A DNA stretch of 33,183 nucleotides. It comes from a bacterium CPR1. GTDB lineage: Bacteria > Vulcanimicrobiota > Xenobia > Xenobiales > QWHO01. The number at the start of each line of letters is the position of its first letter. Within the stretch, counting starts at the first letter, position 1. Location: positions 1-33,183 of the forward strand of contig QWHO01000046.1 of the NCBI GenBank assembly GCA_021404945.1, in the 5' to 3' direction. Positions 2,371 through 16,844 of the stretch are shown in pieces. A model generated the notes under the pieces. The model was not told the DNA's origin. It made no database searches and was given only the letters and a program-made list of their open reading frames with translations. Both the position numbers and the translations under genes were made by a program.

Positions 2371-4130
2371 CGGTTGGCGGTCGTCCGGTTCAGGTAGCGC
2401 GAGGCATACTGGCGCAGGCCGTGGGCGATCCCCTCGGCGATGCGCTGTCGATACTCAGGGGTATTGAGCAGTTTGCCCTCGGTCGTGTTGGAGAGGAAGG
2501 CAGTTTCGATCAAAACCGAAGGCATACGGCTGTGAGAGAGCACGTAGAAGCGATTCTTCTGAATGCCCCGGTTGGCGCGTCCGGTTGCTGAAAGCAGGTT
2601 GCCGTGAAGCTCCTGGGCCAGCAGATAGTCGCTGGACTTGTAGTAGTGCACTGAGGTGCCGTTGGCCCCTGCCCCGGCAGCGCTGTTGCAGTGGACGCTG
2701 ACGAAGAGATCAGCACCGTAGTCCTGAGCGACTTTGACCCGCGCTCCCAGCTCCTGGCTGGCGCTGGACCCGGCCCAGGAGACATCCACGTCCTGTGTTC
2801 TGGTCATCACGACATTCCAGCCGTCGCGTTTGAGGATCTCGGTCAGGCGCAAGCAGATGTCCAGAGTGATGTCGGCCTCACACACGCCCAGGGCCCGATT
2901 GATGGCCCCGGGGTCGGAGCCGCCGTGGCCGGCGTCGATGCAAATCACCCCGCCAATCTTGGGAAAGCTCGTGGCCCCGTAGCCCTGGTTGGAGGTGGAA
3001 TCGATAGGAGCCTGGTCGAGCACTTCGATGACCAGGCTATTGGGGTTATCGCCCGGCGTCAGGCGCGTCTGGGCCGGCCTGGAGAGCTCCATCACGACCC
3101 GCACCACCGCCGCAGGCTCGGCTGAGAATTGAGATACACGCACGTTCTGCAGGAAGCTGCCCTGAGCGGCAAAGTCTTGCTTGGTGCCGACCAGGGCAGT
3201 CTTGGGGATGTCGAGCACGAAACGGTTGTCCGGCTCCTTGTAGCGCCGCCACTCGTACTGAATTGGCCCGGAAGCGCTCAGAACCAGGCGGTGTCCCCCC
3301 ACCATGGGCTCGAAGACCACCGAGGTGATCTTCTCTCCGGGAAACGCCTGGGCCGGAGCGGCCGTCGGACGCTCGGCCGGCAGGCTGAGATGGAAGGCCA
3401 GCTGCCCGGGCGTGCCCGAGGCAGGCCTCAGACTGACCCCGGGAGCGGTGGGCACCACGATCCGGCTCACTGCGGGCCCGAGCTCGAACTGCCCCAGGCG
3501 GATGGTGCCCAGCCGGGGGTGCTCGATCTTGTTGGAGCCGGTGTCGAGCACCGCACCGGGGATGTCGATCACATACCGATCGGGCTCGCGCAGGCTGAAG
3601 GTCTTGCAACGCACGGGCAGGGTGGAGTCGATGACCAGACGCTGAGCGTCGATCTTGACCGAGCGAATCAGGGGCTCGAGCCAGGCGTTCTTGCCCTGAA
3701 CGGTCAGCCGGGCCCCCAGCAGGTCCTCCAGGATGGAGAGAGGCAGGTGGGGTTGCCCTTCGACCTCCTGGGCCACCAGCTCAAGCTGGCGCCCGGTTGG
3801 CTCATCGGGGAAGCGCTGCTGACCCAGCACCAGGCGCTGGGTCAGGCTGCCCTTGCGAGCCAGCAGGGCCTCGCCATCCCAGCTGAGGGAAACGCCAAAG
3901 CAACGACCCAGCACGGCCAGCTCGGGGGCCGATGCGGGAATCAGGAACTCGTCCGGAAGGCTGGTGGCCAGCAGGTCCAGCGTCAGGCTGCCCCGGGGGT
4001 ATTTCAAGTTGAGCCGGGTAGGGGACTTGATGGTGATTTCCTGGGCCTCCGGGCCGTCCTGAGCCAGGGCGGCCAGCTGCAACCCGAATGCGAAAAGGGC
4101 CAGCAAAGCTATCAGCGGCAGTTTTCTCAT
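2367..4130 (-). CDS. N-acetylmuramoyl-L-alanine amidase with two AMIN-type domains
   Basis: 587 residues, exported (signal peptide LIALLALFAFGLQLAALAQ). Residues about 30-145 resemble a copper-amine-oxidase-N-like or stalk domain. Two AMIN-like domains follow (about 155-245 and 268-372, each with a RYVIDIPGA or NRFVLDIPKT strand), which in this family bind peptidoglycan. The C-terminal Amidase_3 domain carries the zinc ligands His402 (DAGHGG), Glu418 (CEADITL) and His480 (SVHCNS) and the catalytic Glu542 (LIETAFLSN). It should cut the MurNAc-L-Ala bond during cell separation, in the manner of AmiA/B/C. A good Shine-Dalgarno (GGAAGGAG) lies 5-6 nt before the ATG. It is coupled to uppP downstream. 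Confidence 0.93.
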   Translation of the reverse strand: MRKLPLIALLALFAFGLQLAALAQDGPEAQEITIKSPTRLNLKYPRGSLTLDLLATSLPDEFLIPASAPELAVLGRCFGVSLSWDGEALLARKGSLTQRLVLGQQRFPDEPTGRQLELVAQEVEGQPHLPLSILEDLLGARLTVQGKNAWLEPLIRSVKIDAQRLVIDSTLPVRCKTFSLREPDRYVIDIPGAVLDTGSNKIEHPRLGTIRLGQFELGPAVSRIVVPTAPGVSLRPASGTPGQLAFHLSLPAERPTAAPAQAFPGEKITSVVFEPMVGGHRLVLSASGPIQYEWRRYKEPDNRFVLDIPKTALVGTKQDFAAQGSFLQNVRVSQFSAEPAAVVRVVMELSRPAQTRLTPGDNPNSLVIEVLDQAPIDSTSNQGYGATSFPKIGGVICIDAGHGGSDPGAINRALGVCEADITLDICLRLTEILKRDGWNVVMTRTQDVDVSWAGSSASQELGARVKVAQDYGADLFVSVHCNSAAGAGANGTSVHYYKSSDYLLAQELHGNLLSATGRANRGIQKNRFYVLSHSRMPSVLIETAFLSNTTEGKLLNTPEYRQRIAEGIAHGLRQYASRYLNRTTANR

Positions 4131-4179
4131 GTGCGCTCCTTCCGCGAATCAGACAGGTCAGGTCAAGCCAGGTTTCTCG

Positions 4180-4446
4180 TCAGCGCTGGCTTTTGATCGG
4201 TTGGGTGGGCGGCGAGGCCGCGGGGCGTTCGTGGACCAGGGTCCAGACAAAGGAGCCCAGCATCAGCACCCCCCCCAGAAGCAGCAACCATCCCCAGGGG
4301 AGCGGGCGGGCCTGAGAACGCTTGGCTCGACTCGAGCGGCGCCGGGGAGCGGATGCAGCCCGGGTCTTCTTCTCCAGACCCTCGACGCTACGTCGCACCC
4401 GGCGGACCGGCTCTGCCGAGCTGTGCTCACGAACGGCTCGACCCAT
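4180..4446 (-). CDS. Small basic single-span membrane protein
   Basis: 88 residues from the ATG at 4446, or 114 from a TTG at 4524. The first half is Arg/Lys/Ser-rich. One transmembrane helix follows (WGWLLLLGGVLMLGSFVW), then a short tail. It ends 49 nt before the amidase start on the same strand, so it probably leads that cell-wall operon. No family recognised. Translation is unclear: the ATG has no Shine-Dalgarno. A strong one (AAGGAGGAGG) sits at about 4507-4516, just before a different ATG at 4504 that opens a 25-codon ORF (4427-4504) ending past this start. Reinitiation or coupling would explain the layout, but that is inference. Confidence 0.45.
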   Translation of the reverse strand: MGRAVREHSSAEPVRRVRRSVEGLEKKTRAASAPRRRSSRAKRSQARPLPWGWLLLLGGVLMLGSFVWTLVHERPAASPPTQPIKSQR

Positions 4447-4535
4447 ACGACAGGAAGCACCGTGCCGACGACCTGGCTTCGCTTGGGCGGGGCAGAGAGG
4501 ACATCCCTCCTCCTTTCGGGTCAAGGTGTCAAAGA

Positions 4536-4560
4536 ATTTTCTTCTTGACTTGAAGAAAAT
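4536..4560. promoter_or_regulatory. AT-rich perfect 9-bp inverted repeat between divergent genes
   Basis: ATTTTCTTC at 4536-4544 and GAAGAAAAT at 4552-4560 are perfect reverse complements around a 7-nt centre. It is one of the few AT-rich spots in a GC-rich window. It lies in the 115-190 bp gap between the divergent cell-wall operon and tatD. An operator for both promoters is the simplest reading. I could not place a convincing -10/-35 pair around it, so the function is inferred from position only. Confidence 0.4.
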
Positions 4561-4638
4561 CCTTCGAGCGAGGGAAAGCGCTCAAGTCGGGGCGGTACAG
4601 AAAGGCAAAGCATCCTTCGACCCGAAACATGCGAGCGC

Positions 4639-5397
4639 GTGTTGATCGATACCCACATCCATCTCGATGCCAGGGCCTATTTTTCCGACTGGACGGAGGT
4701 GCTCGACCGGGCCGTGCGGGCCGGGGTGGCCCACGTGGTCGCCCCCGCGACCACCCTGGAGTCGGCCCGCCGACTTCTGGAGATGGCCAGCCAGGATGCG
4801 CGCGTCCTGGCTGCCGTGGGGGTTCATCCTCACGAGGCGGGCTCCTGGCGTGACGAGCAACTCGACGAGCTGTCCGAGATGGTGGACCGGGCAGTGGCCG
4901 TGGGCGAGATCGGGCTTGACTTCCACTACGACTTTGCACCCCCTGATCAGCAGTTGGGCTGCTTGCGCGCCCAGCTTGGTCTGGCCCGGGAACGCGCACG
5001 GCCGGTCATCTTGCACTGCCGAGAAGCCGAAGAAGCACTCTATGAAGAGCTGAGCCGGGCCCAGCTGCCGGCTGGAGGCGTGGTCCACTGCTTCACGGGA
5101 AGCTGGGACTGGGCCGAGCGGTTCCTCGATCTGGGCTACTTTCTCGGCATCACGGGCATGGTCACCTTTCCCAGGCTGGCCGAGGTGCACGAGGTTGCGC
5201 GCCGCATCCCGCTCGACCGGCTGCTGCTGGAGACCGATGGGCCTTACCTGGCCCCCGTTCCCTTCCGGGGCAAACGCAATGAGCCCGGCTACGTCCCCCT
5301 GATCGCCTCGAAGGTGGCCGAGCTACGCGGCATTGATCCTGAGCAAGTGGCTCTGGCGACCAGTGCCTCGGCCACCAGGCTCTTCGCCCGCCCGTGA
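4639..5397 (+). CDS. tatD: TatD-family metal-dependent DNase
   Basis: 252 residues, the family's usual length. TIM-barrel metallohydrolase motifs are in order: DTHIHLD at the N-terminus (two metal-binding His), GEIGLDFHYD (bridging Glu), VILHCREAEE (His), VVHCFTGSWD (His) and LLETDGPYLAP (catalytic Asp). Known members are cytoplasmic 3'-5' exonucleases acting on DNA and RNA. The start is GTG (GTG TTG ATC GAT), chosen because DTHxH normally sits within the first few residues. The stop TGA overlaps the GTG of the next gene (GTGA), so this enzyme is co-translated with the giant tubulin-like/ATPase protein. No functional link between the two families is known to me. Confidence 0.93.
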   Translation: MLIDTHIHLDARAYFSDWTEVLDRAVRAGVAHVVAPATTLESARRLLEMASQDARVLAAVGVHPHEAGSWRDEQLDELSEMVDRAVAVGEIGLDFHYDFAPPDQQLGCLRAQLGLARERARPVILHCREAEEALYEELSRAQLPAGGVVHCFTGSWDWAERFLDLGYFLGITGMVTFPRLAEVHEVARRIPLDRLLLETDGPYLAPVPFRGKRNEPGYVPLIASKVAELRGIDPEQVALATSASATRLFARP

Positions 5398-8300
5398 GCG
5401 GCCACTTCTTGCTGGGCCTGGGAGGGCTGGGCTCGCGACTGGTGGGCCAATCCAGCCAACTGCTCGCGGGTCGGTCAGGAAGCGGTCGGCTGATCACGGC
5501 CTTGATCGATTCGGACAAGGCGGCCCTCAATGCCCTGGCGGAAAATCCCTGTCAAACCTACCTTCTAGGAGCCCAGCCTGCCGAGAAGCTGCTGCTCAAC
5601 CCGGGCCAATGGGAGCGGTCGGTTCCCCCTGGCGTCCAGCCGGAGTTGAGACGCGTCGGCAGTGGCTCGATCCGAATGCTGGGGCGTCTGATCTATCTGA
5701 CTCACTACCGGTCGCTGCGCGAGTGGCTGGGGCCCGTGCTGCTCGAGCTCGGCCAGACCGGCTCGATCCGGGTAACCCTGGTCGGCTCGCTGGCCGGAGG
5801 GACAGCCAGCGTGCTGTTGTGTGAGCTTCCCTTCCTGCTTCGCCACCTGAGCCAGGAGCTCACTGCCACGGTCCCCCTGACCATTGAGGCGATGGTTCTC
5901 GGTTCAGCTCGCCCGGCCCGCCATGAGCGGGGGGGCTCCAACCCCTATGCGACTCTGATCGAGCTCAACCACTGGCAGGCTTCCGACACGGTCTACCGGC
6001 TGCAAGTGCCGGGCGAGGCTGACTGGGAGTGGTCGGCCCCGCCCTTCGAGCAGATCTTGCTGTTCAGCTGTCGAGACCTTGAGGATGCTCGCGAGCACGA
6101 GGCTTTGAGCCTGCAGGTGACCGCCTGTCTGGGCCTGCCCCTGTGGCCGGCCTACACGGCCCTGGCCGAGGAGGTCAGCCGCCGACAGGCTGCGTTCTGG
6201 GGCCAGACCGACGAGCGCGGGAACCCGGTGGCCTTCTTCAGCCTGGGAAATGCCTCCCTCTCCTTGCCCTTCGATGAGATTCGCACCGCCCTGGCATCCC
6301 GCATCCTGGCTCGACTGGTGGAGCGCTGGCAACAACAGATCACGCGCCAATCGGAGCGGCCCGAGACGCCCCGGGCCGCTCTCGACTTCCTCCACCGGGA
6401 GGCGCTGGCCCGCCATGTGTTCGTGGAGGAGCTGGGCCGAGCCGCGGGCGGACCGGGCGCTTTCCGCCAGAACCGCGAGCTGGCCACCTTGCGCGAGGAG
6501 TTGGAGCGAAAGCCCTCCCAGGGGCCGGCGCTGGTGGCACGCCTGCGCACCCTCGAGGGTCTTTTCCTCACCACTTTGGGCGAGGGTCAACCCGATGGCC
6601 TTTTTGGCAGGGTGACCGAGCGAGGGAGCGAGCTGGTCGCTCGCGGGACGAAGGCCCTTTCCGAAGAGGTGAATAGCTTTTTCCGCAGTGATCGACCGCT
6701 GGGATATGCCGCCTATCTCGAACAGCTCTCTGATGCTCTTGGTGACCGCTTGCGCTCGCTCTATGAAGAAATGAGTCAGCTCGAGCTGGACGAGCTTCGG
6801 CTCTCCCAGGAGAAGGAGCAGCTCCTGCGGCAGGCTGAGGCTGAGGCCGTGGGCGTGCTCGACCGCGTCTTTCGCCGCAAGCGGACGAGCTCACCCACAG
6901 GCCCGCTGGCCGAGCTGACTGACCGATATTACCAGTGCCGCCTGGACCTGCACATCCACCGCGAGGCCTGGAATGCCTTCCAGGAGCTGCTGCTGCTGGT
7001 CGAACGGCTCCGCTCGGAGGTTCGCACCGTCTATGACTACCTCGAGCAGATGTCCACTTTGCTCAAGGACCGCCACAACCAGGCCCTGGGCCAGATCTTC
7101 TCGATGCCGGGCGAGGTACTGATCAGTCGGTCCGAGGTGGACGAGTACCTCGTCGACCGGGCCGCGGGGGACCAGGTCGAGATGGCGGCCGGGTGGGTTC
7201 GAGAGGTCCTTCAACTCGAATTGCCCGAGTTACCCCACCATTTCAAGCCCGGCGAGGCGGCTCAGGCGATGATCCTGGCGGTGGGACAGCGACTCGAGGG
7301 TCTTGAGGGCATCGATGCGTTGGGCAAGTTCTATCAGTGCTACCAGGGACCGGCCGCCGAAGCTCAACTCGAGCAATTGCTTGCTCGGGCCCGGCCAACC
7401 CTGCAGCCGCGCCGGCAAATCGAGGATTGGACGTCTCAAGAGGCGTTTCTCGTTGCCCTGCATTCGGGGACGGGCGAGGAGAGCCCCGCCCACCAGAAAC
7501 TGACCGCCTTCCTGTTGGGACAGGGACTCAACCTCAGCATCGTTCCCTTCCTGAGCCGAGATCGGCTGGTCTTCTTGCGCCTGGTGGGAGGGTTTCCGCT
7601 TCGTGCCCTGGAGCTGACTTTCTTGCGCCAGGCTTACCTCAGCGAGCTCCAGGGCTCCAGGATCGCGCCTCATTGCCGCACCGACGTGCGCTGGAGGGCT
7701 CTATCGCGCCCTTCGGGTGATGAGGTCGAGCGGCTCTGGGAGAGCCTGGCCGTGGCCGTCCGCCTGGGCCACCTGGAGACAGGAGACTTCCTCAACAGCC
7801 CTCGCTGCCCGGATCTGACCTCGGTCCTGGCCTGTCAGGCCCTCTATGACGAAGTGGAAGAGGGATTGCTGACAGAGGGCAATCTGCTAAAGGGATTGGG
7901 GCGTTGGCAGCAAGAGTGGATCGAAGACCAGGGCGTGGAGGCATTCCTCGGGCAGTTGGAGATCCCAGACGACCAGACTCTGCTAGGTCGCGAGTTGCAC
8001 GAGCCTCTGCGAAGGGCTGCCTCTCGCCTGCGCCAGCAAATGGAAGGATGCTGGGCGGAGTGGGAAGCGGTTATCGCCGGCTACCTGAGCCACTCTCCAA
8101 CTGTGACCGAGGCCGATCTGGTCGAGATCCCGGCAGGATTCCGAGCCTGGGCCATGAGCCGGTTCCAGCAGGTCCACCCCGCCGACAGGGTGACCTTCCA
8201 GGCGGCAACGGGAGCACTCGAGGTTCGCCAAGCCGGCGATCGAGCCCATCTCGAGGCTGCCTGCAGGCGACTTGTGGAGAGCCAGACGGCGGATCAGGAA

Positions 8301-9785
8301 AGATTCGCACAGGCGGTCGGTGATCTGGCCGACTCCTTTTGCCAGGTCCTCGGCTGGTCTTCTGACCGGGCCCTGGGTTTTAGCTCCGTCTGGGGAAAAC
8401 TCGTTCATACCCACAGTTTGCAGGTCAAGATCCCCTCTCCCCTGCCATTCCTGGCCTGCCAGAGAGGAGCTCTGAGCCACCAGGACGTTGCCAACCTCCG
8501 TTTGTTGCTCGAGCAACTCGGCCAGGTGAGTCGTTTTTGCATCCTGATCAATACAGGTGAGCCCGCGTCCAACCGCGCCATCCTGGCCGAGGGACTCAGC
8601 GGCCTCCTCCCCACCACCCTGATTCTGCTGACTCCTGAAGACCTCGTAAGAATGGCTGGCAGCGAGAATCCTCTGTTCAGCCTGGTCGCAAGAATGCTCG
8701 AGCAGCTTGACCTGATGGCCATCTCGCCCTTCGTCACCGAAGGTCCCGTGCCGCCCTCGATGTTCTTCGGCCGGGAGGGCGAGCTCAAGGACGTCCTCCA
8801 CCGACTCGAGCACAGCAGTCTGGCCCTGGTGGGACCGCGTTCTATCGGTAAGACCTCCCTCTTGCACCGAGCGCTCGAAGTCCTGCAGCGTGGCGAGCTG
8901 GCCGTTTTCTATCTTGACTGCCACTCGCTGGCCCGAGGCTCGGACTTCTTGCTGGGTCTGGCCGCCGAGCACCTGAGTGACTGGGAGCCCCGGATGAGCT
9001 TCCCGGCCATCCTGATGGAGCTTCAGCATCGCTTCGGTGGACGCCAGGTCCTTTTGATCCTCGACGAGATCGACCCTCTGCTCACGAACGACCAGGTCAA
9101 CTCCGAATTTCTCGCTCGGGCGTTCCGCCAGGCAGCCAGCGAGGGAAAGGCCCGCTTCCTCTTGTGCGGCGATAGGGCTCTGCACCAGCGTCTGCACCAG
9201 GCCGACTCGGCTTTCTGCAACCTTGCCTATCCGGTGAGACTTGCTTTCTTGCCGCCCAGCGAGGCCTCGGCACTCATTCTGGAGCCGCTCGAGCAGATGC
9301 AGGTCCGCTTTGAGAACCGCCAGGAGGCGCTCGACCTGCTGCTTTTCGTGACCGCAGGGCACCCCAACCTGATCCAGAGAGCCTGCCGCGCTCTGGTGGC
9401 CAGTCTGAGCCGGTCCAAAACGCGACAGGTCGACCGCGACCTTCTGGAAGAGGTTCTCAAGGACAATCGCTTCGGGGAAGAGTATCTGGCGACCCTGTGG
9501 GGCTCGAGTGGAACGAAGGAAAGACTCGTCTCACTGGCAATCGAGCCGGACGAGGAATTGACCGCCCAGGATCTGCACGGCCGGCTCGAGCTGGATTTCA
9601 AGGTCGATCTGGCCATGCCAGAGCTGCTGGAAAGCCTGGAAAATCTCTGCTTCTGCGGAATTCTGGAGAGACGGGGCTCGCGGTTCCGGTTCGCCATCCG
9701 CTCCTTCCCTGAGCTGGTGCGCCACTTGATGGACGTGCACGAGGGCGTGGAGCAGTTTCGGACAGGGCTGCTCAAGGGGGTCTGA
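5394..9785 (+). CDS. Giant tubulin-like protein with C-terminal AAA-type ATPase
   Basis: 1463 residues, starting at a GTG overlapping the tatD stop. The N-terminus (FLLGLGGLGSRLV, residues 5-17) is a Rossmann-like glycine motif as in FtsZ/tubulin T1. GSLAGGTASVLL (131-142) resembles the tubulin signature GGGTGSG (T4) in degenerate form. Together these suggest the bacterial tubulin-like group (Pfam Tubulin_2 type). The middle (about 300-1080) is largely helical with Glu/Leu-rich segments and no recognised domain. From about 1123 there is an ATPase: FFGREGEL, Walker A GPRSIGKTS (1147-1155) and Walker B LLILDEIDP (Asp1224), then a winged-helix-like tail. There is no signal peptide or membrane span, so it is probably cytoplasmic. 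The fold call rests on motifs only. A nucleotide-driven assembly or conformational machine is inference. Confidence 0.65.
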   Translation: MSGHFLLGLGGLGSRLVGQSSQLLAGRSGSGRLITALIDSDKAALNALAENPCQTYLLGAQPAEKLLLNPGQWERSVPPGVQPELRRVGSGSIRMLGRLIYLTHYRSLREWLGPVLLELGQTGSIRVTLVGSLAGGTASVLLCELPFLLRHLSQELTATVPLTIEAMVLGSARPARHERGGSNPYATLIELNHWQASDTVYRLQVPGEADWEWSAPPFEQILLFSCRDLEDAREHEALSLQVTACLGLPLWPAYTALAEEVSRRQAAFWGQTDERGNPVAFFSLGNASLSLPFDEIRTALASRILARLVERWQQQITRQSERPETPRAALDFLHREALARHVFVEELGRAAGGPGAFRQNRELATLREELERKPSQGPALVARLRTLEGLFLTTLGEGQPDGLFGRVTERGSELVARGTKALSEEVNSFFRSDRPLGYAAYLEQLSDALGDRLRSLYEEMSQLELDELRLSQEKEQLLRQAEAEAVGVLDRVFRRKRTSSPTGPLAELTDRYYQCRLDLHIHREAWNAFQELLLLVERLRSEVRTVYDYLEQMSTLLKDRHNQALGQIFSMPGEVLISRSEVDEYLVDRAAGDQVEMAAGWVREVLQLELPELPHHFKPGEAAQAMILAVGQRLEGLEGIDALGKFYQCYQGPAAEAQLEQLLARARPTLQPRRQIEDWTSQEAFLVALHSGTGEESPAHQKLTAFLLGQGLNLSIVPFLSRDRLVFLRLVGGFPLRALELTFLRQAYLSELQGSRIAPHCRTDVRWRALSRPSGDEVERLWESLAVAVRLGHLETGDFLNSPRCPDLTSVLACQALYDEVEEGLLTEGNLLKGLGRWQQEWIEDQGVEAFLGQLEIPDDQTLLGRELHEPLRRAASRLRQQMEGCWAEWEAVIAGYLSHSPTVTEADLVEIPAGFRAWAMSRFQQVHPADRVTFQAATGALEVRQAGDRAHLEAACRRLVESQTADQERFAQAVGDLADSFCQVLGWSSDRALGFSSVWGKLVHTHSLQVKIPSPLPFLACQRGALSHQDVANLRLLLEQLGQVSRFCILINTGEPASNRAILAEGLSGLLPTTLILLTPEDLVRMAGSENPLFSLVARMLEQLDLMAISPFVTEGPVPPSMFFGREGELKDVLHRLEHSSLALVGPRSIGKTSLLHRALEVLQRGELAVFYLDCHSLARGSDFLLGLAAEHLSDWEPRMSFPAILMELQHRFGGRQVLLILDEIDPLLTNDQVNSEFLARAFRQAASEGKARFLLCGDRALHQRLHQADSAFCNLAYPVRLAFLPPSEASALILEPLEQMQVRFENRQEALDLLLFVTAGHPNLIQRACRALVASLSRSKTRQVDRDLLEEVLKDNRFGEEYLATLWGSSGTKERLVSLAIEPDEELTAQDLHGRLELDFKVDLAMPELLESLENLCFCGILERRGSRFRFAIRSFPELVRHLMDVHEGVEQFRTGLLKGV

Positions 9786-13362: not shown

Positions 13363-15264
13363 TCAGGCCGCGATGGCCTGTTGGGGTTGAGGCTGAGCGG
13401 TCGGCGGTGCGGCCGGAGGCGCCGCCTGGGGCGGCGGCAAGGCCGGTTTGTATGTGGCTGCAGCGGCCAGCTTCTCATCCACCGTGCGATTGCGGTTCTG
13501 GTGACTGTTGACGATGGCTTTCCCGGTGTTCACGGCGATGCGACCCAGCGCCAGGGCCAGCACGCCTTGCGAAACGACCTGAAGAGCCGGGTTCATCGTG
13601 CCTGTGAGCAGAGCGCCGCAGGTCAGGGCGGTGCCCACGCCGATGGCCGTGTCGATGGCCCCGTCTACGATGAGATGACGCCGATTGGCAGTCGGTGAAT
13701 CGTCGCGGCGGATGCCTTCGACGATCTTGCTGACCCCCGAGTGGGTACGCAGCGCCGCTCCCACGGCTCCGGCAGCCACGGCCACCACGCCGGGAATGGG
13801 CAAGAGATACGGGAAGCTCATCAGCGGATACCAGTTCAGGCCTGCGGCTGCAGTGGCGCCCGCAGCCGCGTCCAGGGCAAACTCATAGCCGTAGAAACGG
13901 GAGATCTGCCCGAAGCTCATCATGCTGCGCGATAGCTTGGGATAGCGGCCGAGCAGGTCGTCATCCTTGGCGATCGACTTGAGCATCTTCTCCCAGTTGG
14001 AGTTGTTCGAGCCGCCGGCCCAGGTGGTGTTCTCGTAGCCGTGGGTGCCGCCCACGGGAACGCCTTCCACCGGGCTCTTGCCTTCGCGGTCAAAGCCATA
14101 GTCGGTGGGCAGGTAGGCCGACAGGCCCGTGGAGCCCTCCATCGAGCGACCCACCATCCCGTTCGTCACCGCATGGTGCTCGGCCACAACGGCGTTCCCA
14201 AGATGCTGCTTGATGGTCTCAGCCGCCTGGCGCACATCGGCTGGGAAGCGATCGTCCTTCGCCACAACCTTGGCGAAGTCTCCCAGGTCGCGGTAGTCGA
14301 CGTAGGGCTCGATGTGGGCCTCGATGTTGGCATAGTGTTGGGCCTGCTTGATATCCTTGCGCAACACGTCCACCAGCGAGGCATCCTGGCCAATCGCGGT
14401 GAGCATCTTGCCGGCGAAGTCCTCGCACGCGTTGCGGATTCCCTCGGCCTGAGAGAGGTCCACGGCCGCCTGGGTGGGGGTGAAGAGTGAGGCTCCGAAC
14501 TGATGCTTGGACTCGTAGACGAACAGTTGTGCGAGCTCTTCGGCGCTCAAATCGCGGCCTTTCTGGTAGGCCTGCTGGCAGTCTTCGATCACCTTGTGCT
14601 GGGGAGTGGTTCCGAATAGACCCGGAATGGGAATGCGCAGGCCTGCCTCCACTTCCTCTGAGCCGACCATGTATTTGGCCACGTTGCGATACTCATAGGC
14701 CACCTCGGCCTGGTTCATCAAGCAGGCGTTGAAGTTGATGACGTCCAACTTCTGTCCGGTGTTCTGCTGGGCGCGCTCGAGCGCGGCCGCCAGGTCCTTG
14801 TTCTGACAGATCGAGCCGGCCTCGTCATCGGTCAGGATGCCTTTGAAGCCTGCCCCGTGGTTCCACAGCACCAGCACGGTTTTCTCGGCTGGATAGGTGC
14901 GCATGCCCCACTCCACAAAGTCTTGCACCGACTGGGGGCTGCCCATGTCGACGTTGCCGCGGTTCTCAAACGAGCTCGTGCTGGCTCCCGTCGTAACCAG
15001 GCCGCGAACCACGTCCTCTTTCATCAAGCCGAGCTCGGCCACGATGTTGACGTTGTCGTCCGAGCCGACCTTGTCGAGCGAATTGAAGGAGTGCCTGGCC
15101 ATCGAGGAGAGGTTGTTCTTGCCGTCTATGAAGTAAAGCACGGTCAGGGCCTTCTTCTGCTGAGGCTTGGCGGTGCCGGTGGCGGCGGCGGGGAGGGGAG
15201 TAACCTGCATCGTCTGGTGGTTCCCTTCGCTAGCTGAATTTGCTCTTTTTTCTCTGAGGGACAT
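13363..15264 (-). CDS. Clostripain-like cysteine protease (peptidase C11) with C-terminal membrane segments
   Basis: Up to 633 residues from the ATG at 15264; an ATG at 15210 with a weak Shine-Dalgarno (AAGGGAA) is equally plausible. The C11 fold starts at KALTVLYFIDGKNNL. The catalytic dyad is visible: His136 in LVLWNHGAGFKG and Cys181 in VINFNACLMNQAEVAYEY. Family members cut after Arg or Lys and usually self-activate. The protease part runs to about 400. After about residue 445 come two long hydrophobic Ala/Gly-rich stretches (WYPLMSFPYLLPIPGVVAVA; VGTALTCGALLTGTM) and a Pro/Ala/Gln tail, suggesting membrane anchoring. No classical signal peptide is seen, so topology is unclear. Its 5' end faces the promoter of the structured RNA 120-180 bp away. 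Confidence 0.85.
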   Translation of the reverse strand: MSLREKRANSASEGNHQTMQVTPLPAAATGTAKPQQKKALTVLYFIDGKNNLSSMARHSFNSLDKVGSDDNVNIVAELGLMKEDVVRGLVTTGASTSSFENRGNVDMGSPQSVQDFVEWGMRTYPAEKTVLVLWNHGAGFKGILTDDEAGSICQNKDLAAALERAQQNTGQKLDVINFNACLMNQAEVAYEYRNVAKYMVGSEEVEAGLRIPIPGLFGTTPQHKVIEDCQQAYQKGRDLSAEELAQLFVYESKHQFGASLFTPTQAAVDLSQAEGIRNACEDFAGKMLTAIGQDASLVDVLRKDIKQAQHYANIEAHIEPYVDYRDLGDFAKVVAKDDRFPADVRQAAETIKQHLGNAVVAEHHAVTNGMVGRSMEGSTGLSAYLPTDYGFDREGKSPVEGVPVGGTHGYENTTWAGGSNNSNWEKMLKSIAKDDDLLGRYPKLSRSMMSFGQISRFYGYEFALDAAAGATAAAGLNWYPLMSFPYLLPIPGVVAVAAGAVGAALRTHSGVSKIVEGIRRDDSPTANRRHLIVDGAIDTAIGVGTALTCGALLTGTMNPALQVVSQGVLALALGRIAVNTGKAIVNSHQNRNRTVDEKLAAAATYKPALPPPQAAPPAAPPTAQPQPQQAIAA

Positions 15265-15386
15265 TATGCCGTTGCGGGCGAGCAGGTGGGTGAATGAGTT
15301 GTAAACGTCGGCCCAAACGCACGGAACAGGTCTGAAAGATTGATTCTATCGAATTCTGCACCTGTCGCTCGAACAAAAATTTGGGG

Positions 15387-15415
15387 TTGACACTCCTTTG
15401 GGGTCGGGCTATATT
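15387..15415 (+). promoter_or_regulatory. Near-consensus sigma70 promoter of the repeated structured RNA
   Basis: TTGACA at 15387-15392, exactly 17 bp, then TATATT at 15410-15415. A transcription start at about 15421-15423 is predicted. This is the best promoter match I see in the window. It points into the non-coding repeat region, as expected for a strongly expressed stable RNA. Confidence 0.85.
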
Positions 15416-15442
15416 GAGCCCCGTCGACGGCAACGTCGGCCG

Positions 15443-15699
15443 AGCCGGTGGGCGAGACAACCGGCGCTCCGGCGTAGCGATACAACCGGCGGGCTGCCAG
15501 AAACCGAGACCTGGCAGGGGTAACGTTCCTGACCACAGTGACGTCGCAGTATCTCGGCTGCGGTGAAAACCGAGGTGGGCCCGAGGCCCTTCCGGAATCG
15601 CGAGAAGAAGAAACGACGACGGTCGTTCTCCGGAGAGGGAAGAGTCGGGTAAAGCTCGATGAGGATGGAGTCGAGACCTGTTGGGCGCGAGCCCGACCG
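15443..15699 (+). repeat. Structured RNA unit 1
   Basis: Hairpin A at 15445-15464. Hairpin C 15494-15500/15511-15517 (CTGCCAG/CTGGCAG). Hairpin D 15553-15557/15570-15574. A variable hairpin AACGAC..GTCGTT at 15612-15627. Hairpin E 15655-15659/15671-15675 (CTCGA/TCGAG) with loop TGAGGATGGAG. It ends with a linker hairpin GGGC-GCGA-GCCC, a GNRA tetraloop, near 15683-15694. Sequence upstream of A (15421-15442) can form its own small stem. Confidence 0.75.
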
Positions 15700-15957
15700 C
15701 CCCGGTGAGCGAGAGAGCCGGCGCATCGGGGAGGCGTTAGACCCGGCGGGCTGTCAGGGACCGTAATCTGACAGGGGTAGCGTGCAGACCACAGGACGCC
15801 GCAATGCCTCGGTTGCGAGAACCCCGAGGTGGGCCTGGGACGAAGAACGGGACCGCGAGGTGTCAAGCACGATCTGATCGTGCCCCGGCGTAGTCGAACC
15901 AGGGTGGTTCGGTGTGGTTGGAGCCGAACGACGCTGGGCAGCCAGGCTGCCTCAGCC
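15700..15957 (+). repeat. Structured RNA unit 2
   Basis: Hairpin A 15702-15721. Hairpin C 15751-15757/15768-15774 (CTGTCAG/CTGACAG). Hairpin D 15807-15812/15824-15829 (CCTCGG/CCGAGG). A variable perfect 7-bp hairpin GCACGAT-CTG-ATCGTGC (about 15867-15883). Hairpin E 15907-15912/15924-15929 (GTTCGG/CCGAAC) with loop TGTGGTTGGAG. The linker hairpin is GGCAGC..GCTGCC before unit 3. Confidence 0.78.
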
Positions 15958-16230
15958 GCACCGGGAAGCGAAAGAACCGGCGCTCTGAGTGGCGTCAAAC
16001 TCGGCGGGCTGTCAGAAACCGTGACCTGGCAGGGGTAGCGTGCAAACCTCAGATACGTCACAGTGTCTCGGTTGCGAGAACACCGAGGTGGGCCTGGGAA
16101 CGAACGTGGGACCGCGAGGGTAAGCAGTGGATGAAACCACCCCCGCCGTAGTTGCACCAGGAATGGCCGGTGAGGATGGAGCCGGTCGCCAACCTGACGG
16201 TTGGCCGCCCTGTCGAGCGTGATCGACAGC
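15958..16230 (+). repeat. Structured RNA unit 3
   Basis: Hairpin A 15961-15980. Hairpin C 16009-16015/16026-16032 (CTGTCAG/CTGGCAG, one G-U pair). Hairpin D 16067-16071/16083-16087. Variable hairpin GTGG..CCAC. Hairpin E 16165-16170/16182-16187 (GGCCGG/CCGGTC) with loop TGAGGATGGAG. Two linker hairpins follow: CCAACC..GGTTGG and a 7-bp CTGTCGA..TCGACAG (about 16210-16229). Confidence 0.78.
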
Positions 16231-16410
16231 GCACCGGGAAGCGAGAGAACCGGCGGTCTGTCGGAGACCGATACCCGACAGGGGTAACGTGCAGACCAGA
16301 GCACGTCGCAGAGCGACGGCTGCGTTAAGAAGCCGACGCACCCGGCTGGAGGCACCCGTGAGAGGTCCTCATGAAGGGTTCGGGTAGGTGCTGCAGCAGA
16401 GATGCTCAGC
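16231..16410 (+). repeat. Structured RNA unit 4 (divergent, shortened)
   Basis: Hairpin A 16233-16252 leads directly into hairpin C 16258-16264/16275-16281 (CTGTCGG/CCGACAG), so the hairpin B segment of about 25 nt is missing. Hairpin D is re-made with different bases (CGGCT 16317-16321 with AGCCG 16331-16335). The second half does not align with hairpin E of the other units and may fold as a long arm between GGCACCCG and CGGGTAGGTGC. Confidence 0.68.
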
Positions 16411-16648
16411 CGCTCCGGCAAGCGTGAAAGCCGGAACACCGAGAGGTTCTACTCTCGGCGGGCTGCCAGAGACCGAAACCTGGCAGGGGTAGCGTGCCGA
16501 CCACAGCTACGCTGCGGTGTCTCGACCGCGACAACCTCGAGGCGGGCCTGGGACCGGTTGCGGAACCGCGAGGGTGAGCGTGATGGGAAGTCACCTCCGC
16601 GACTTGAGTCGAACCAGGAGAGTCCGGTGTGGTGGAGCCGGACCGCAG
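16411..16648 (+). repeat. Structured RNA unit 5
   Basis: Hairpin A 16414-16435 (TCCGG..CCGGA). Hairpin B is a perfect 7-bp CCGAGAG..CTCTCGG. Hairpin C 16463-16469/16480-16486. Hairpin D 16521-16525/16537-16541 (CTCGA/TCGAG). Hairpin E 16622-16627/16638-16643 (GTCCGG/CCGGAC) with loop TGTGGTGGAG. The transcription terminator begins immediately after it. Confidence 0.78.
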
Positions 16649-16677
16649 AGCCACCCTTGAGGTGGCTTTTGTGTTTT
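16649..16677 (+). terminator. Rho-independent terminator of the structured RNA
   Basis: Stem AGCCACC (16649-16655) with GGTGGCT (16661-16667), loop CTTGA, then TTTGTGTTTT. It is on the same strand as the promoter at 15387 and directly abuts the last hairpin E. Confidence 0.88.
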
Positions 16678-16800
16678 GCGCCAGGTATGCTGGAGGTCCA
16701 GCCGCAAACTGGCGGAGGTGCTACGCTCTCGGGGCCCCCCCGCCTCCGCCACCGCAAGAATGTTGCATGGTCGGCCGGACCTCCACAGAATCTTGGCGTC

Positions 16801-16844
16801 GCGCAGCCGGAAAACCGTGTCAGGGGCGTTTCCGGCTGCGCTCC
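16801..16844. repeat. Long near-perfect inverted repeat between the RNA and dinB
   Basis: GCGCAGCCGGAAA at 16801-16813 can pair with TTTCCGGCTGCGC near 16829-16841, giving a stem of about 13 bp with a loop around CGTGTCAGGGGC. No poly-T follows on either strand. The position just 3' of dinB (on -) suggests a processing or termination role. A similar GCGCAGCCGGAAA string recurs at 28553-28565. Confidence 0.5.

Follow-up and report, generated by a model that had tools for sequence, protein, structure and literature searches.

A family of large bacterial RNA genes built from tandem modules

In order to follow up a preliminary description of an unrecognised, structured RNA in the genome of bacterium CPR1 (assembly GCA_021404945.1), we analysed contig QWHO01000046.1 over positions 1 to 33,183 (hereafter the window) and searched for related sequences. 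We found that the stretch is a genuine, previously undescribed gene for a 1.25-kb structured RNA made of five copies of one pseudoknotted module. It is the founding example of a family of ∼110 modules at 39 loci, two of them probable, that was found only in Eremiobacterota, a group of uncultured bacteria. Its existence and structure are shown by sequence comparison, whilst its function is inferred.

An RNA gene with its own promoter and terminator

The preliminary description claimed five tandem hairpin modules, bracketed by a promoter and a terminator on the same strand in a gene-free region, and each part of this observation was confirmed (Table 1). The sigma70-type promoter matches the consensus at 11 of 12 positions, with 0.2 such sites expected in shuffled sequences. 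The intrinsic terminator, a stem-loop followed by a T-rich tail, is weak evidence when taken alone (two sites found, 1.4 expected); however, nearly the same stem recurs at the end of the homologous arrays. The five modules were recovered by a repeat search (spacings of about 257, 259, 249 and 205–220 nt), by an nhmmer search with a model of the five units, and by covariance models, which detected each of them in a whole-genome search. Single-sequence folding of the 1.26-kb RNA gave a minimum-energy structure with long-range pairs that cut across the modules, and the comparative structure described below is preferred. The transcript itself is inferred, as no RNA-seq or other transcriptome data were examined. 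The array lies between a gene for a clostripain-family peptidase (upstream) and dinB, encoding DNA polymerase IV (downstream), both on the other strand.

Table 1. Features of the RNA gene and its surroundings (positions in the window; CM, covariance model)
Position (strand)	Feature	Details	Support
15264–16439 (−)	391-aa antisense ORF	covers most of the RNA; a chance product of GC-rich structured sequence that automatic annotation might call a protein	
15369–15386 (+)	upstream promoter element TCGAACAAAAATTTGGGG	forms a 24-nt element with TTGACA	promoter-element search of the genome
15387–15415 (+)	sigma70-type promoter	−35 TTGACA 15387–15392; 17-nt spacer; −10 TATATT 15410–15415	equivalent promoter in 23 of 25 arrays
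15421–16676 (+)	inferred non-coding RNA transcript	start about 15421–15423; five tandem modules	repeat, nhmmer and CM searches
15423–15441 (+)	5′ hairpin GUCGACGGCAACGUCGGC		recurs at the 5′ end of other own-genome arrays (compare L009, L010, L012)
15423–15676 (+)	module 1	core 15493–15585; P1 15494–15500/15511–15517; P2 15523–15527/15541–15544; P3 15545–15549/15558–15562; P4 15551–15557/15570–15576; end hairpin 15655–15675	CM E 2.7e-10
15677–15936 (+)	module 2	core 15750–15839; P1 15751–15757/15768–15774; P2 15780–15783/15796–15799; P3 15800–15804/15813–15817; P4 15806–15812/15824–15830; end hairpin 15907–15929 GUUCGGUGUGGUUGGAGCCGAAC	CM E 1.4e-12
15937–16187 (+)	module 3	core 16008–16098; P1 16009–16015/16026–16032; P2 16038–16041/16055–16058; P3 16059–16063/16072–16076; P4 16065–16071/16083–16089; end hairpin 16165–16187	CM E 8.5e-12
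16188–16404 (+)	module 4, shorter divergent type	core 16257–16346; P1 16258–16264/16275–16281; P2 16287–16290/16303–16306; P3 16307–16311/16320–16324; P4 pairing shifted by about 1–2 nt from the alignment	CM E 1.5e-9
16405–16646 (+)	module 5 (last)	core 16462–16552; P1 16463–16469/16480–16486; P2 16492–16495/16509–16512; P3 16513–16517/16526–16530; P4 16519–16525/16537–16543; end hairpin 16622–16643	CM E 9.9e-13
16647–16676 (+)	intrinsic terminator AGAGCCACCCUUGAGGUGGCUUUUGUGUUUU	stem-loop 16647–16669, then T-rich tail	near-identical AAAGCCACC...GGUGGCUUUU terminators at the other arrays
16801–16841	perfect 13-nt inverted repeat GCGCAGCCGGAAA/TTTCCGGCTGCGC	between the RNA terminator and the 3′ end of dinB; perhaps a dinB terminator	

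A match to a known RNA family had been named in advance as an outcome that would overturn the proposal, and none was found: Rfam 15 returned no match at gathering score over the window, a search of 15300–16800 at lax E-value gave only a 14.9-bit match to sR38 (gathering score 50), and no match fell inside the homologous arrays of seven loci. This includes the models of GOLLD, ROOL and OLE.

Homologous arrays in the same genome and in related genomes

The array matches six other contigs of the same 7.4-Mb assembly at 67–82 % identity, and with the covariance model of the core we counted 20 modules at seven loci. When read out and oriented, these loci share one layout: most have TTGACA, a spacer of 17–18 nt, a TATAAT-like hexamer and a 5′ hairpin like GUCGACGGCAACGUCGGCCG, followed by one to six modules and an AAAGCCACC...GGUGGCUUUU-like terminator. 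The loci designated L013 and L014 have one module each, L010 two, L009 three, the array in the window five and L012 six, whilst L011 is cut by a contig end.

BLAST and covariance-model searches of the phylum (149 genomes with the model) found the family in its own taxonomic family (f1) and in five genomes of one genus (g2) of a second family of the same order. There were 84 module matches in 25 arrays at a lax cut-off and 71 at E 0.001. With a broader model built from the 71 modules, we counted 20 modules in the CPR1 genome (G000), 14, 19, 16, 16 and 23 in the g2 genomes G001, G003, G005, G007 and G009, and two in G002, of another genus, corresponding to 7, 5, 6, 6, 5, 8 and 2 loci. G009 is fragmented and its count may therefore be inflated. 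Conversely, in G003 the end of contig C105 and the start of C149 (L132, L133) break within tens of bases of the RNA promoter box, suggesting that these arrays cause assembly breaks and are undercounted in metagenome-assembled genomes (MAGs), which most of the genomes are. A BLAST hit in a further genome, G042, is due to chance, as the covariance model found nothing in that genome and nhmmer nothing at that locus.

The two G002 loci score only 40–42 bits. Both end in terminators, and one (L110, about 3630–5195, on contig C155) also has a TTGACA promoter, making them probable homologues of 1.6 kb and about 2 kb. The second (L111, about 2530–4785, on contig C224) is a gene-poor stretch full of short hairpins with CUUCGG-like loops, with one core module near its 3′ end and a strong terminator, and is possibly the largest member of the family. 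Beyond the phylum, a pattern scan of 84,980 bacterial and archaeal species hit 11 stretches in five genomes, three of which are titled Candidatus Eremiobacterota, whilst the other two (MAG_50 and SZAS-1/EREM-KAN-1) correspond to G003 and G005 of the same phylum; metagenome assemblies were not scanned. No match was found in viral contigs, plasmids or phages, and an origin from any of these was rejected.

Of the 25 arrays examined, 23 have a promoter with TTGAC and at least 9 of 12 matches, the exceptions being L011 (cut by the contig end) and L013 (weak). Terminators were found by script in 24 of 25; in L071 a wrong site was picked and the stem was read by eye. L071 (4834–5190) is a shortened array, with one module and the start of a second running directly into the terminator, and looks like a deletion derivative. 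In g2, an extended box, ATTGTRA-N5-ACACCA-N5-TTGAC, has 13 hits with zero or one mismatch in the genomes searched, of which 11 lie just upstream of arrays and the other two at contig ends, where an array would be cut off; two-mismatch hits elsewhere look like chance. In the CPR1 genome, the 24-nt element including the −35 occurs within three mismatches only twice, at the window array and at contig C529, both times at an array of this family. This promoter evidence is independent of the RNA structure. A comparison with the rRNA promoter of the same genome showed a similar TTGACA promoter and was not taken further. Furthermore, the closely similar arrays L022, L023 and L024 (G007 contig C55, G003 C39 and G009 C9) share an upstream element, AAGTGTTYTGYATACACT, with an inverted repeat AGTGT/ACACT next to the −35 but have different gene neighbours, pointing to relocation of whole RNA genes or to an operator for a regulator.

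Orthologous g2 loci keep their neighbours (L070/L079/L082/L083; L073/L075/L078; L074/L080), whilst paralogous loci have unrelated neighbours in either orientation, which argues for action in trans. In the syntenic L075 and L078 regions, class A RNase P RNA (L075 534–908, L078 1–335) lies about 3.6–4 kb upstream of the arrays.

A pseudoknotted core conserved by base-pair covariation

Each module carries a ∼90-nt core consisting of hairpin P1, the linker AGRGGUA, hairpin P2, whose loop pairs back to the linker, and an H-type pseudoknot, P3/P4. In order to test this structure we used a sequence-only MAFFT alignment of 25 cores from ten arrays, in which 88.9 % of the proposed pairs were standard, compared with 30–43 % when the same structure was slid by 1–3 columns. 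Nineteen of 25 pairs have two-sided changes, and none of 500 shuffles reached the covariation score. In 71 modules aligned by a model containing only P1, P2 and P4, the pseudoknot and loop–linker pairs not imposed by the model were still paired at 93 %, against 26–44 % when slid; the linker–loop pair is G-C in 56, A-U in 13, A-C in 2 and never G-U. Two of the alignments (A2 and A4) were aligned to the model, such that their P1/P2/P4 counts lean towards the structure, whereas the A1, A3 and P3 results do not depend on it. An alignment of 11 full-length g2 RNAs of about 1 kb gave 217 consensus pairs, 81 with compensatory changes.

Protein-like substitution in homologues in place of covariation was a further result that, as stated beforehand, would have counted against a structured RNA; the homologues instead show covariation without a coding signal. 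In the conserved helices of the 1-kb alignment G-U cells number 167 and A-C cells 19, which fixes the selected strand as the one read from promoter to terminator. Sense open frames are at or below shuffle level in the RNA region of the window and at shuffle level in the arrays, whilst the 342-codon antisense open frame in the window is reached by 12 of 200 shuffles and is not a consistent feature of homologues. Unit lengths are not multiples of three. As such, a protein-coding repeat gene, for example on the minus strand, is refuted despite the long antisense ORF.

The modules are not interchangeable copies. In g2, the 1-kb RNAs have four module types in fixed order. In the CPR1 genome the last modules of several arrays, including module 5 of the window, cluster together, and module 4 groups with the middle module (module 2) of L009 and the single module of L013, although the sequences are short and deep branches are unreliable. 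Most modules close with a hairpin whose G-rich loop holds two GG pairs (GG-N-GG), and a short CC-GNGA-GG hairpin with a GNRA-type loop recurs in many modules. Some modules of L079, L080, L081 and L083 carry an extra GC-rich hairpin inserted in the P2 loop (for example GGGAGGUCGCGUGCGACCUCC in L079), at the same kind of place in different modules.

Possible function and relation to known RNAs

The interpretation offered in the preliminary description, an unrecognised structured RNA that matches none of the known large RNA classes it named and is perhaps multivalent, is supported, although it underestimated the case, as this is a multi-locus family with position-specific module types and dedicated promoter boxes; its suggestion of a sponge, scaffold or cage remains inference. 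Sequence comparison establishes the promoter and terminator, the five modules and their conserved pseudoknotted cores, the hairpin closing most modules, the paralogues of the same design, and conservation by covariation. What follows from here is inferred. We consider the RNA most likely, at about even confidence, to be a trans-acting, multivalent structural scaffold, chosen because of the repeated self-contained domains, typed modules, several co-regulated loci and absence of a linked gene. In this view each module would fold as an independent compact domain during transcription and present equivalent sites (core surface, GNRA-type loops, G-rich end loops) to a protein partner or to other modules; position-specific types would build one defined particle rather than a bag of identical binding sites, several loci would raise the dose, and expression would probably be strong or condition-dependent through the dedicated promoter box. 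Nevertheless, a scaffold is a default reading for any large structured RNA without a linked gene, no partner protein or target is identified, and the variation from one module (L013, L014) to six means that one fixed particle is not required in every case.

The closest rival, though an unlikely one, is a sponge in which each module titrates an RNA-binding protein in the manner of CsrB/RsmZ with CsrA. Tandem sites and several co-regulated loci would fit titration, as would the G-rich end loops, many of which contain GGA; the selection of these loops was biased, however, so that their GGA content leaves this point undecided. For the same reason a test of Shine–Dalgarno mimicry, in which the loops paired somewhat better with the anti-SD than shuffled loops, was not used, as they had been selected for GG content. 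Compared with CsrB, RsmY and RsmZ, which likewise comprise several co-regulated RNAs per genome with repeated hairpins and G-rich loops, the present RNAs have pseudoknotted ∼90-nt cores and position-specific domains instead of simple GGA hairpins, far more than a linear decoy needs. Moreover, CsrA (PF02599) is absent from G000, G001, G007 and G009, four of the six main carriers, and present in G002, G003 and G005, which disfavours this client, although another protein could still be titrated.

A ribozyme or ligand-binding RNA, repeated for cooperativity or dose, is also unlikely but cannot be excluded. The small, strongly conserved set of residues (AGRGGUA, loop GCAGACY, AG) inside a pseudoknotted fold resembles aptamer or ribozyme cores; however, no relation to any Rfam ribozyme or riboswitch was found, and no downstream gene is controlled, as arrays end in their own terminators and neighbours vary in identity and strand. 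Tandem riboswitches similarly have structured units with conserved residues next to a terminator, but the present arrays are autonomous, not in the leader of a gene, and have up to six copies. A guide or antisense function, in which the cores are handles and the segments between them pair with targets, is improbable: these segments differ strongly between paralogues, but are themselves largely paired with compensatory changes, leaving little free guide sequence, although target transcriptomes were not searched. Least likely amongst the non-coding readings is a giant Y-RNA-like ligand of Ro60. In G002 the probable 1.6-kb homologue in L110 lies about 1.8 kb upstream, on the same strand, of a gene with TROVE and Ro60-vWA domains (6970–8520), with an APH-family kinase between them, but TROVE (PF05731) is absent from all six other carriers, including CPR1. 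The arrays are also many times larger than bacterial Y RNAs (YrlA and relatives) and have no Y-RNA match in Rfam.

The family is most like GOLLD, ROOL and OLE, large, elaborately folded bacterial non-coding RNAs conserved by covariation rather than by sequence, for which RNA-only multimers have been shown (PMC12286853). It differs from them in carrying tandem copies of one core within one RNA, in variable module number and in several paralogous loci per genome, and no phage link was found; multimerisation was not measured here. A more speculative, and so far doubtful, possibility is a modular ‘beads-on-a-string’ particle, in which each module is a self-folding RNA subunit and tandem fusion of typed subunits (first, middle, last) in one transcript encodes the size and geometry of an RNA-based or RNA–protein assembly, with several paralogous particles per cell in one bacterial lineage.

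We found no report of a non-coding RNA of this kind in Eremiobacterota in the open-access literature, to which the search was limited, subscription papers and preprints being mostly outside it. We regard the family as new at the level of RNA class, as no known family matches and no tandem-module RNA of this size is known to us, although a new large-RNA class of a broadly known sort would be the more cautious label. Bacterial non-coding RNAs longer than about 500 nt outside rRNA and introns are few, and each known class is, to our knowledge, a single-unit RNA. This lineage-specific, multi-locus family of 0.3–2 kb RNAs, built by tandem repetition of one pseudoknotted domain with dedicated promoters and strong covariation, gives structural biology a large set of naturally repeated RNA domains ready for cryo-EM, and offers a defined system for asking how large RNAs evolve by domain duplication and what they do.
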